From Mesorhizobium australicum (GTDB taxonomy: Bacteria > Pseudomonadota > Alphaproteobacteria > Rhizobiales > Rhizobiaceae), in contig NZ_FXBL01000004.1 in the NCBI RefSeq assembly GCF_900177325.1, positions 2,790,001-2,854,000 on the forward strand: a stretch of DNA of 64,000 nucleotides, read 5' to 3'. Each line of letters starts with the position of its first letter. Positions within the stretch are counted from its first letter, which is position 1. The notes below the pieces were generated by a model that ran no database searches, was not told the DNA's origin, and saw only the letters and a program-made list of their open reading frames with translations. The position numbers and the translations under genes are program-made. Below, piece after piece: positions 1 to 43,510 of the stretch.

Positions 1-2222
1 GCGGAGTAGCCGCCGTAGGAGTTGCCGGCATCCGCAACCTCGACATGGGCTTCCGGCAGCTCGTCGAGGAAGCGCGACGGGATGGTGGATTGCCACAGGC
101 CGTGGATGCGGCGGTTGGAGACGAACCAGATGTGCAGGTTCTTCTTGGCGCGGGTCAGCCCGACATAGGCCAGCCGGCGCTCCTCCTCCAGGCCGGTGCG
201 GCCGCCTTCGTCCAGCGCGCGCTGGTGGGGGAAGAGGCCTTCCTCCCAGCCGGGCAGGAAGACGGTCTCGAATTCGAGGCCCTTGGCCGAGTGCAGCGTC
301 ATGATCGAGACGGCGTCGAGCTCGGCATTCTGCTCCGCGTCCATGACCAGCGCGACATGCTCGAGGAACGAGCGCAGCGACTCGTAGTCCTCCATCGAGC
401 GGATAAGTTCCTTCAGGTTTTCGAGCCGGCCGGGCGCCTCGGCCGACTTGTCGGCCTTCCACATGTCGATATAGCCGCTCTCCTCAAGAATCTGCTCGGC
501 GAGTTCGGTGTGGGCGGTGGTCTCGATCGCCTCCTGCCAGCGGCCGAAATTGGCGCAGATCTCGCGAAGTGCCGCGCGCGGCTTCGGCTTCATCTCGTCG
601 CTCTCGGCGAGCTTGCCGGCGGCCTCCAGCATCGGGACGCGCAGAGCGCGCGCGGTGTCGTGGATCTGGCGGATGGCGCTCTCGCCCAGGCCGCGCTTCG
701 GCACATTGACGATGCGCTCGAAGGCGAGGTCGTCGGCGCCTTGGGCGACGACGCGAAAATAGGCCATCGCATCGCGGATCTCCTGCCGCTCGTAGAAGCG
801 CGGGCCGCCGATGACGCGGTAGTTGAGGCCGAGCGTGACGAAGCGGTCCTCGAACTCGCGCATCTGGAAGGAGGCGCGGACGAGGATCGCCATGTCGTTC
901 AACGCGTGGCCGCGGCGCTGCGCCTGCTCGATCTCCTCGCCGACGGCGCGGGCCTCTTCCTCGGAATCCCAGGCGGCGTGGACCTGGACGCGGGCGTCGT
1001 CCGGGTCGGCATGGTCGGTGAACAGCGTTTTTCCCAGCCGCCCCTCGTTGTGGGCGATGAGATGCGAGGCGGCGCCCAGGATGTGGGCGGTGGAACGGTA
1101 GTTCCGCTCCAGCCGGATGATGGTGGCGCCGGGAAAATCCTTGTCGAAGCGCAGGATGTTGTCGACCTCCGCCCCGCGCCAGCCGTAGATGGACTGGTCG
1201 TCGTCGCCGACGCAGCAAATGTTGACGGTGGGCCTTTCCTTCTCCCCGTTCACGGGGAGAAGGTGGTCCGAAGGACCGGATGAGGGGCCGGCGCCAGGCT
1301 CGGCAGGGTTTGCGCCGCCCCTCATCGGCCTACCGGCATCTTCTCCCCGTGAACGGGGAGAAGAACGCTCTCCGCCCGGCCGCTGCGCCAGGAGCCTGAG
1401 CCACATGTACTGCGCGGTGTTGGTGTCCTGGTATTCGTCGACGAGGATGTATCTGAACCGCCGGTGGTAGTCGGCCAGCACGTCCGGGTGGTCGCGGAAG
1501 ATGCGGATGGGGTGGAGGAGGAGGTCGCCGAAGTCGCAGGCATTCAGGCTCTTCAGCCGCTCCTGGTATGCGGCGTAGAGCTCGCGGCCCTTGCCGTTGG
1601 CAAAGGCGCGGGCGTCGCCCTCGGGGATGTCCTTCGGCGAAAGCCCCTTGTTCTTCCAGCCGTCGATCATCTGCGCGAACTGGCGGGCGGGCCAGCGCTT
1701 GTCGTCGAGGTTCTCGGCCTGGATGAGCTGCTTCAGGAGACGGATGACGTCGTCGGTGTCCAAAATGGTGAAGCCGGATTTCAGGCCGGCGAGCTCGGCG
1801 TGGCGGCGCAGGATTTTCACGCCGATCGAGTGGAAGGTGCCGAGCCAGGGCATGCCCTCGGCCGAGCCTTCGCCGATCAGCACCGCGATGCGCTGCTTCA
1901 TCTCGCGCGCGGCCTTGTTGGTGAAGGTGACGGCGAGGATCTGCGACGGAAAGGCGAGGCCCAGCGACAGGATGTGGGCGATGCGGGTGGTGAGCACGCG
2001 CGTCTTGCCGGTGCCGGCGCCCGCGAGCACCAGCACGGGCCCCTCGGTGGTCTCGACGGCCAGCCGCTGCTCCGGGTTCAGTCCCTTGAGATAGGCCGGC
2101 TCGGCCGCGTGGCCGCCGCGCGCAGCCATGGCGCGGGCCGCAAGCCCGCCGGCAGGCTTCGCCGGAGCGCCGCCTCTCGGCGCGTCGAAGAAGGGCATGT
2201 CGTCGTCAGGGTAGTCCACCAT
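1..2222 (-). CDS. uvrD: ATP-dependent DNA helicase UvrD/PcrA (3' end outside window)
   Basis: SF1A 3'-5' helicase of nucleotide excision and mismatch repair. The reading frame starts at the ATG at 2222 (MVDYPDDDMPFFDAPRG) and stays open to position 1, so about 740 residues are visible and the C-terminus lies outside the window. Seen: the Walker A region (LVLAGAGTGKTR) about 65 residues in, motif II (ILVDEYQDTNTAQYMW) near 1400-1450, and motif III (CCVGDDDQSIYGWRGAEVDN) just below 1232. Between motifs II and III the frame runs through a palindromic repeat (1238-1363) that adds about 40 residues without a stop or frameshift. The long open frames on the opposite strand here are high-GC shadows. 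Confidence 0.95.
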   Translation of the reverse strand, partial: MVDYPDDDMPFFDAPRGGAPAKPAGGLAARAMAARGGHAAEPAYLKGLNPEQRLAVETTEGPVLVLAGAGTGKTRVLTTRIAHILSLGLAFPSQILAVTFTNKAAREMKQRIAVLIGEGSAEGMPWLGTFHSIGVKILRRHAELAGLKSGFTILDTDDVIRLLKQLIQAENLDDKRWPARQFAQMIDGWKNKGLSPKDIPEGDARAFANGKGRELYAAYQERLKSLNACDFGDLLLHPIRIFRDHPDVLADYHRRFRYILVDEYQDTNTAQYMWLRLLAQRPGGERSSPRSRGEDAGRPMRGGANPAEPGAGPSSGPSDHLLPVNGEKERPTVNICCVGDDDQSIYGWRGAEVDNILRFDKDFPGATIIRLERNYRSTAHILGAASHLIAHNEGRLGKTLFTDHADPDDARVQVHAAWDSEEEARAVGEEIEQAQRRGHALNDMAILVRASFQMREFEDRFVTLGLNYRVIGGPRFYERQEIRDAMAYFRVVAQGADDLAFERIVNVPKRGLGESAIRQIHDTARALRVPMLEAAGKLAESDEMKPKPRAALREICANFGRWQEAIETTAHTELAEQILEESGYIDMWKADKSAEAPGRLENLKELIRSMEDYESLRSFLEHVALVMDAEQNAELDAVSIMTLHSAKGLEFETVFLPGWEEGLFPHQRALDEGGRTGLEEERRLAYVGLTRAKKNLHIWFVSNRRIHGLWQSTIPSRFLDELPEAHVEVADAGNSYGGYS
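1238..1363. repeat. Inverted pair of rhizobial palindromic repeat units inside uvrD
   Basis: Two near-identical hairpins, CCTTCTCCCCG-ttca-CGGGGAGAAGG (1238-1263) and CTTCTCCCCG-tgaa-CGGGGAGAAG (1340-1363), lie in inverted orientation. Between them are GATGAGGGG (1279-1287) and its complement CCCCTCATC (1318-1326), plus a small GTCC-GAA-GGAC hairpin. The whole is therefore a nested inverted pair like BIME/RIME elements. The same unit style recurs between genes at 43391-43510. Here it lies inside the uvrD coding sequence and is translated in frame. Confidence 0.9.
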
Positions 2223-17164: not shown

Positions 17165-17520
17165 GGGAAGGTGGAGGTTTCTGTTGCCAGGTACCTCCGA
17201 ACCCCGCCTGAAGGTGCTAACCCACAGGGCTTGATTCGAGACTATCGCACTGCTTACGCAGCGAGACGTGCCTCAGCATAGTTGTCGTTGGCAACTATAG
17301 GTTTGACCCGATAACGGCGGTATCATGCCGGGCAAAAGCGCGATCTTTACACCCTCGTCGATCCTATTTCGCCCCCATCAGAAGATGCCGTGGCCGGCAG
17401 CTTGTGGTGGAGGCGCCGGGTACCGCCCCCGGGTCCGAATGGCTTATTTCATCGGCCGTTTATCGCCATAGCCGGACAAGCCGGCACGCCGAATATAGGT
17501 AGAGCGAAGGAGAAAGGGAA
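17165..17520 (-). ncRNA. ssrA: Transfer-messenger RNA, two-piece (circularly permuted)
   Basis: On the minus strand the acceptor piece comes first: a T-arm and acceptor 3' half (CGGACCC...ACCCGGCGCCTCCACCA) with the encoded CCA ending at 17405. A spacer of about 28 nt is removed. The coding piece begins GGGGGCGAAATAGGATCGAC at 17376. The tag frame 17292-17254 reads GCC AAC GAC AAC TAT GCT GAG GCA CGT CTC GCT GCG TAA, giving ANDNYAEARLAA. A stem (GGAGGT...AACCTCC) closes the coding piece near 17170. The outer ends are approximate. The RNA rescues stalled ribosomes; the tag is the SspB/ClpXP ligand. Confidence 0.95.
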
Positions 17521-17617
17521 GGCCGTTCGGGTCGACGTTTCTGTGGAGAGGCCTGAGACGTCATATTCGCGCCGCGCCACACTTCTAGCCGTGCGGGCTC
17601 ATGGAGAAACCTGCCTC

Positions 17618-33105: not shown

Positions 33106-33113
33106 CCCGCACC

Positions 33114-33167
33114 ATGAAGACGGTTCTCATTCTCGTAGTAGGAAGGCGCATGGGCAAGGCGGTGTAA
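33114..33167 (+). CDS. ilv operon leader peptide
   Basis: 17 codons, MKTVLILVVGRRMGKAV then TAA. Residues 4-9 are all Val, Leu or Ile (V-L-I-L-V-V), the regulatory amino acids of the operon. It is followed by a terminator and then by ilvB, the standard layout of branched-chain amino-acid attenuation. Too short for most gene finders. No Shine-Dalgarno is apparent upstream, consistent with leaderless initiation. Confidence 0.85.
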   Translation: MKTVLILVVGRRMGKAV

Positions 33168-33223
33168 CCGCCGGGCGAGAGCACCCCATGCGCCAGACAG
33201 GCTCCCTTCCGGGGGCCTTTTTT
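33145..33223 (+). terminator. Attenuator RNA structure before ilvB
   Basis: GGCGCATGGG (33145-33154) pairs perfectly with CCCATGCGCC (33185-33194) around an inner hairpin GGCGGT-gta-ACCGCC (33158-33172). Downstream is an intrinsic terminator: GGCTCCC (33200-33206), loop TTCC, GGGGGCC (33211-33217), then six T (33218-33223). A ribosome stalled on the Val/Leu/Ile codons would cover the first arm and change the folding; I did not resolve the exact antiterminator pairing. Confidence 0.82.
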
Positions 33224-33288
33224 ATTGCCTTCGATACCGATAAACGACCCACGCGCCGCATGAGACGGCAAACAGACGGAAGACGACG

Positions 33289-43390: not shown

Positions 43391-43510
43391 GCCCCCCTCA
43401 TCCGGCCGCTTCGCGGCCACCTTCCCCGAGGGGGGAAGGGGAGCGTCGCCGATGACCTCCTCTCCCTTGGGGAGAGCGTGGCGAGGTGGCGCCGAGCCGG
43501 GTGAGGGGGC
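43391..43510. repeat. Intergenic rhizobial palindromic repeat, inverted pair
   Basis: GCCCCCCTCATCCGGCC-gcttcgc-GGCC, then CCTTCCCC-gagg-GGGGAAGG; it is followed by CTCTCCC-tt-GGGGAGAG and the reverse-oriented end GGGTGAGGGGGC. The outer ends (GCCCCCCTCA and TGAGGGGGC) are complementary. The modules CCCTCATCCGG and CACCTTC-CCCC match the element inside uvrD, so this is another copy of that family in its usual intergenic place. Confidence 0.85.

Follow-up and report, generated by a model that had tools for sequence, protein, structure and literature searches.

The classic example of palindromes that are translated into protein is that of the Rickettsia palindromic elements, which occur within a single genus in a large number of unrelated genes. 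They are described as hairpin elements of about 150 bp that are read in frame inside genes (PMC10969869). Another precedent is provided by the REP sequences bearing GTAG or CGTC tags: the account in PMC3733652 places these repeats inside genes, many of them for replication or repair and with a UvrD/Rep helicase among those named, and suggests a mutator role. According to this source, two Xanthomonas species have their recB repeats at approximately one site, and the other genes of the category have theirs at different sites. Enterobacterial MITE-like intergenic repeats also carry open frames within annotated genes (PMC2759123). RIMEs are named as repeats of S. meliloti (PMC2573895) and Bru-RS is listed as an intergenic family (PMC2267715).

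The locus considered here belongs to this known kind, because the REPs of PMC3733652 and the Rickettsia elements already show palindromes that are translated inside genes, and like those REPs it concerns palindromic repeats translated within the replication and repair category. What is added, as far as the account in PMC3733652 extends, is the serial occupancy of one UvrD loop by many repeat families in several genera. Unlike the REPs of that account, the repeats described below have one UvrD loop in common across many species and many families, and the element termed family A bears neither tag; two Bradyrhizobium loop types (I and J), which open with GTCATTCC or CGTCATTGCC and close with the complement, do look like the CGTC dimers of PMC3733652. 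The parallel with the Rickettsia elements, drawn in an earlier note on this DNA, is a fair one for the kind of event, the likeness being one of event and not of sequence; unlike those elements, many families here enter one loop of one gene in several genera. The enterobacterial units differ in that they occupy scattered genes, and the abstract of PMC2759123 describes no repeated occupancy of one protein loop. Likened by description only, family A resembles RIME of Rhizobium and Bru-RS of Brucella, which are intergenic palindromic repeats of similar size in related bacteria.

More than 100 uvrD loci with long loops constitute a natural series: a single loop of a conserved motor protein, filled anew by various repeats that are largely non-coding. 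Swapping or deleting these loops offers a direct test of an old question, whether repeats inserted into proteins are neutral or of use, and the movement of short palindromic repeats can be studied on a clean collection of insertions. It also carries a caution, namely that rhizobial UvrD sequences include repeat-derived stretches.

A palindromic element inside the uvrD gene

The window, by which we mean the whole 64,000-nucleotide stretch analysed (G000:C4:2790001-2854000), lies in a 5.86 Mb genome, G000. Its left edge cuts a uvrD gene on the reverse strand (3..2222; whole gene at genome positions 2789496-2792222), recognized from its ORF and from matches to Pfam PF00580, PF13361 and PF21196. 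The product is a UvrD/PcrA-type helicase of 908 residues, 740 of which are encoded in the window and the remainder to the left of its edge. The top NCBIfam match is pcrA, under the cut-off of that model; the SF1A core is present on both sides of the insert by alignment with E. coli UvrD, by Pfam and by motifs, which places the protein in the UvrD/PcrA group. The best Pfam stretches are UvrD-helicase at residues 48-281, before the insert, and UvrD_C at residues 369-700, after it. In the alignment with E. coli UvrD (3lfu), residues 45-282 correspond to 7-240 and residues 333-728 to 241-642, the alignment being interrupted precisely at the insert. Residues 283-332 (codons at 1227..1376, reverse strand) have no counterpart and fall between E. 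coli residues 240 and 241.

The insert separates DEYQDTN (residues 262-268; 1419..1439, reverse strand) from GDDDQSIYG (residues 339-347; 1182..1208, reverse strand), which we take to be helicase motifs II and III, respectively. The earlier note had proposed about 40 added residues at this place; the position stands, and the excess is somewhat greater, since the loop between the motifs measures 70 residues against 24 in most of the Rhizobium and Agrobacterium sequences listed, or about 46 extra. As also proposed there, the frame stays open throughout the element, with no stop in the 908-residue ORF and with Pfam domains on both sides, although the peptide quoted as SSPRSGED in fact reads SSPRSRGED. 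The chain of a RecA-like fold passes from the helix behind motif II into the strand that leads to motif III at the edge of the sheet facing away from the nucleotide, so that a long exposed loop is plausible here, and the alignment with E. coli UvrD is consistent with a surface position for the insert.

The element itself, family A, is a 125-bp palindromic repeat (1239..1363, residues 286-330; this and its parts are given without strand) delimited by its repeats, its predicted fold and its genomic copies. A palindrome search located two 24-bp outer hairpins, CTTCTCCCCGTTCACGGGGAGAAG at 1239..1262 and its inverted partner at 1340..1363, with arms of 27 nt that are 96% complementary. These facing palindromes enclose an inner complementary pair, in which GATGAGGGGC (1279..1288) is predicted to pair with GCCCCTCATC (1317..1326), and both inner arms are mostly conserved among 14 aligned copies. 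Chance matching of the palindrome is excluded: with up to three mismatches allowed, the pattern has 2 matches in the window against a mean of 0.00 over 100 dinucleotide shuffles. Folded as the uvrD-sense strand, the element reaches -102.8 kcal/mol (z -7.67), and none of 200 shuffles was equally stable. The inverted pair of hairpins that had been read between motifs II and III is thereby borne out. An assembly error at the insert is unlikely, because a second genome, G005, bears the same insert at the identical place.

A search of G000 with family A (E <= 1e-3) returned at least 49 match rows over both strands, judged from the best 40 of 71 candidates. The 14 near-full-length copies that were aligned, that in uvrD included, have unlike flanks; inspected by eye, they offered no evident target-site duplication, and no shared GTAG or CGTC tag adjoins the family A ends, CTTCTCCCC...GGGGAGAAG. 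No Rfam family reached its gathering score at the element site. Beyond this genome, family A matched 178 plasmid records, chiefly from Rhizobium, Sinorhizobium and Shinella, and no annotated feature lay beneath the matches among the 25 listed, for which the gene table is incomplete. A RAYT-type transposase was considered as the local mobilizer and set aside, the Y1 transposase domain PF01797 being absent from the G000 results and present in three of eight genomes examined.

A palindromic repeat in the intergenic region at 43391..43510 (genome 2833391-2833510; without strand) had been assigned to the same family. No family A match lies there among the matches listed (best 40 of 71 candidates); the repeat instead matches the uvrD insert of a same-genus sister genome, G006 (E 4.9e-21, 80% identity), and is placed in another family, called F. 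The suggested search for further in-frame copies covered 37 element loci in G000, uvrD included (17 of family A and 20 from the listed matches of the family to which the G006 insert belongs), and Pfam was run on each ORF that spans an element with at least 60 residues on either side, plus five others. Only uvrD has Pfam domains on both sides of the element, and two loci (L007 and L027) have a domain on one side, a result that applies to one genome and part of its repeats and that depends on Pfam.

Many repeat families at one place

Recurrent occupancy became apparent from a survey of 198 parsed loops, reduced to 185 distinct uvrD DNA loci by the removal of 13 duplicates (identical over the loop and the 240 nt to either side). 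Two loci were left unparsed, L053 (whose contig begins within the gene) and L138 (with a short loop), and in two long-loop loci (L263 and L272) motif III reads DDDQA. Loops of 20-32 residues occur at 59 loci, a loop of 39 residues at one and loops of 41-116 residues (median 67) at 125; since sampling favoured close matches of the window UvrD or of another UvrD, P0116, 125 of 185 is not a natural frequency. Most Mesorhizobium-type sequences have a long loop, and 24 residues is the usual length in the Rhizobium and Agrobacterium sequences listed. Across 228 aligned UvrD sequences, the motif II-III loop is the sole place between ORF residues 71 and 765 (protein numbering plus 27) with inserts of at least 10 residues, which are found at the main loop gap column in 167 of the sequences. 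Long-loop residues are on average 78% disorder-promoting, against 52% over ORF residues 101-500, a range that includes the loop.

Unusually stable hairpins (z <= -3) are formed by 55 of the 125 long loops (more than 40 residues). Single-linkage clustering joined 106 of the 125 through shared modules, and greedy clustering of the 55 strong-hairpin loops was used instead; at a coverage of 50% it gave 25 clusters, and at 30% it gave 18, which are not counts of unrelated families because some clusters share modules. About a dozen loop types are plainly distinct by eye. The window loop, of family A, runs SSPRSRGED...LLPVNGEKE; families B and C run SSPLEGEVPAKRAEG...GHPPLKGEG and ISPLEGEM...GDISPSRGEI, respectively. 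Relatives in Bradyrhizobium and Rhodopseudomonas have the types VIPGRVEDANPESR...HPGMT, LPGLTRQS...RRPGDD and SPRARGE...PHPDPL, and the loop of Ensifer sp. BR816 reads SPTPPHEGEG...SPSPLWGGVGEG. In a further class, the D-type loops (for example, L187-L200), small stems (CCCGACCGGG, TCCGACCGGA and GGCGACCGCC) seem by eye to vary with compensation.

The insert had been called rare, a description that cannot be kept because an insert of some kind, often from another repeat family, is found at this place in most of the close relatives examined. An unrelated loop in relatives had been named as the outcome that would refute the interpretation; it is half borne out, since different loops are indeed common here, but many of them are themselves repeats.

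Their repetitive nature was assessed by searching each genome with its own loop DNA, using joined queries (best 39-40 of 58-540 candidates, and best 22 of 99-375 in a second search). All 14 repeat-type loops tested recur elsewhere in their own genome, 12 of them among the matches listed in the first search and those of G003 and G066 in the second; the short matches are those of G003 (49 nt, E 1.6e-7), G066 (34 nt, E 5.6e-8) and G067 (49 nt). Three of 12 D-type or unclassified loops also recur (G013, G033 and G070), and for the other nine no second copy was found in the genome concerned at E <= 1e-6 (best 22 of 99-375 candidates). The C-terminal linker DNA of these genes served as a control, and in 10 of 12 genomes the search (best 25 of 86-324 candidates) returned nothing beyond the linker itself. 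In the two exceptions, G004 and G006, and likewise in several near relatives, a repeat is present in the linker as well. In each of these two genes (L038 and L037, respectively) the linker repeat is palindromic, read in frame and the second in the gene; it lies in a glycine-rich segment that precedes the Tudor domain. The linker is itself variable in length, with inserts of at least 10 residues in 70 of 228 UvrD sequences. Loops and linkers were folded in 19 pairs, and 24 further loops without linker controls: 17 repeat loops gave z values of -2.9 to -11.4 and the linkers of the same genes -2.3 to +2.0, and the hairpins of D-type and unclassified loops were mostly weak.

Some observations stand beside these comparisons. 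A same-genus search around G070 returned only G070 itself. In Mesorhizobium sp. L-8-3, the genome of L066, a 108-bp unit that contains a D-type UvrD loop motif is repeated 20 times in tandem with 98% matches (L276:442-2607). In a same-genus draft genome, a uvrD match starts at the first base of a contig (G001:C83), at a point equivalent to residue 343 of the window UvrD and just past the loop, as if a repeat had broken the assembly there.

Turnover, constraint and competing explanations

Different loops reside in near-identical helicases. Over 623 core residues, P0052 (family C) and P0119 (B), P0052 and P0099 (D), and P0082 (D) and P0116 (B) each differ at a single position, and yet their loops are different; the flanking DNA of L186 (B) departs from that of L187 (D) at 31 of 1440 nucleotides (about 2%), and the two have wholly different loops. 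The core of the window protein differs at 10 of 623 residues from P0002, which has a family C loop, and at 12 from that of G005, the other family A genome. In four loci (L057, L223, L227 and L266) the loop is stacked, a palindromic insert being followed by D-type sequence. Near-identical B, C and D loops are dispersed across the tree among near-identical cores, a distribution suggesting that, besides fresh insertion, loop alleles have been exchanged. Parsimony gave 70 changes of hand-made regex labels over 228 sequences and 17 changes between short and long loops over 185, which are not numbers of insertions because the scatter of B, C and D among near-identical cores points to allele exchange and to poor resolution of the tree.

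Constraint was compared between G000 and G005. Their 45 loop codons contain five nonsynonymous differences and one synonymous (dN/dS 1.85), against 18 and 100, respectively, in the core (dN/dS 0.05); in this one pair constraint is relaxed, and the loop codons appear unconstrained as amino-acid sequence. The term exaptation used previously is not supported, because the loop codons look unconstrained in this pair and one family takes the place of another between near-identical helicases. The loop DNA differs at 6 of 135 nucleotides, with the outer hairpins unchanged, against a core dS of 0.257. This low divergence hints at constraint on a DNA or RNA hairpin, at gene conversion or at a younger shared origin, among which one pair cannot decide.

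The reading we prefer, with a probability of roughly three in four, is that the loop is permissive, that short palindromic repeats have occupied it repeatedly and that loop alleles have been exchanged. The motif II-III loop would be a tolerant place in an otherwise insertion-poor motor core, filled repeatedly and independently in several Hyphomicrobiales lineages by non-autonomous repeats that happen to provide an open frame and a length of 3n. Insertion probably proceeds by transposition-like copying, and the inserts would end up as a tether, some 20-90 residues in length, that is rich in disorder-promoting residues and presumably exposed and disordered. Turnover may combine fresh insertion, stacking of insert upon insert and homologous recombination, which would use the conserved flanks to exchange one loop allele for another. 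Against this reading stands the divergence of the loop DNA between G000 and G005, which is far below the prediction of neutral drift. The nine D-type or unclassified loops for which no second copy appeared (best 22 of 99-375 candidates), and the weak hairpins of most such loops, also count against it. Nor does tolerance alone explain the bias towards the loop, because the C-terminal linker, which also varies in length, shows a repeat in only two of 12 genomes and their near relatives.

That same scarcity of recognizable repeats in the linker would be expected if the machinery that mobilizes the elements preferred the loop sequence and the open frame were a by-product, as might the starting points of different families, which in two distant clades lie no more than about 15 codons past LLAQ or LLSQ. 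We regard such a target preference as unlikely: a single target would have to suit many different families, the 14 aligned family A copies have unlike flanks with no target duplication evident by eye, and PF01797, found in three of eight genomes, was not found in G000. It is likewise improbable that a changeable long loop, or a hairpin in uvrD mRNA or DNA, has been selected because it tunes the activity or amount of UvrD, for example as heritable variation in mutation or recombination. Whole groups of related species do have long loops, in the one pair compared the loop DNA has diverged less than the synonymous sites of the core, and PMC3733652, in noting repeats in many repair genes, proposes a mutator role; the repeat families are interchangeable, however, that pair shows no amino-acid constraint, and Rhizobium and Agrobacterium usually have the short loop. 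A related and speculative proposal, to which we assign a small chance, is that the loop is a maintained cassette site, at which repeats are favoured and recombined between lineages and alternative loops or hairpins change the strength of repair or anti-recombination. A single old insertion with lineage-specific decay, its likeness to repeats being due to chance, could hold for some D-type or unclassified loops, in most of which there is little hairpin signal, and D-type loops are widespread. For repeat-type loops it is contradicted by own-genome matches in 14 of 14 against two of 12 linkers, by the 18-25 clusters and by the different families in near-identical cores, and as a general account it is barely credible.

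Elsewhere in the window, Rfam identified an alphaproteobacterial tmRNA at 17170-17524 and the sRNA Atu_C8 at 33113-33233.
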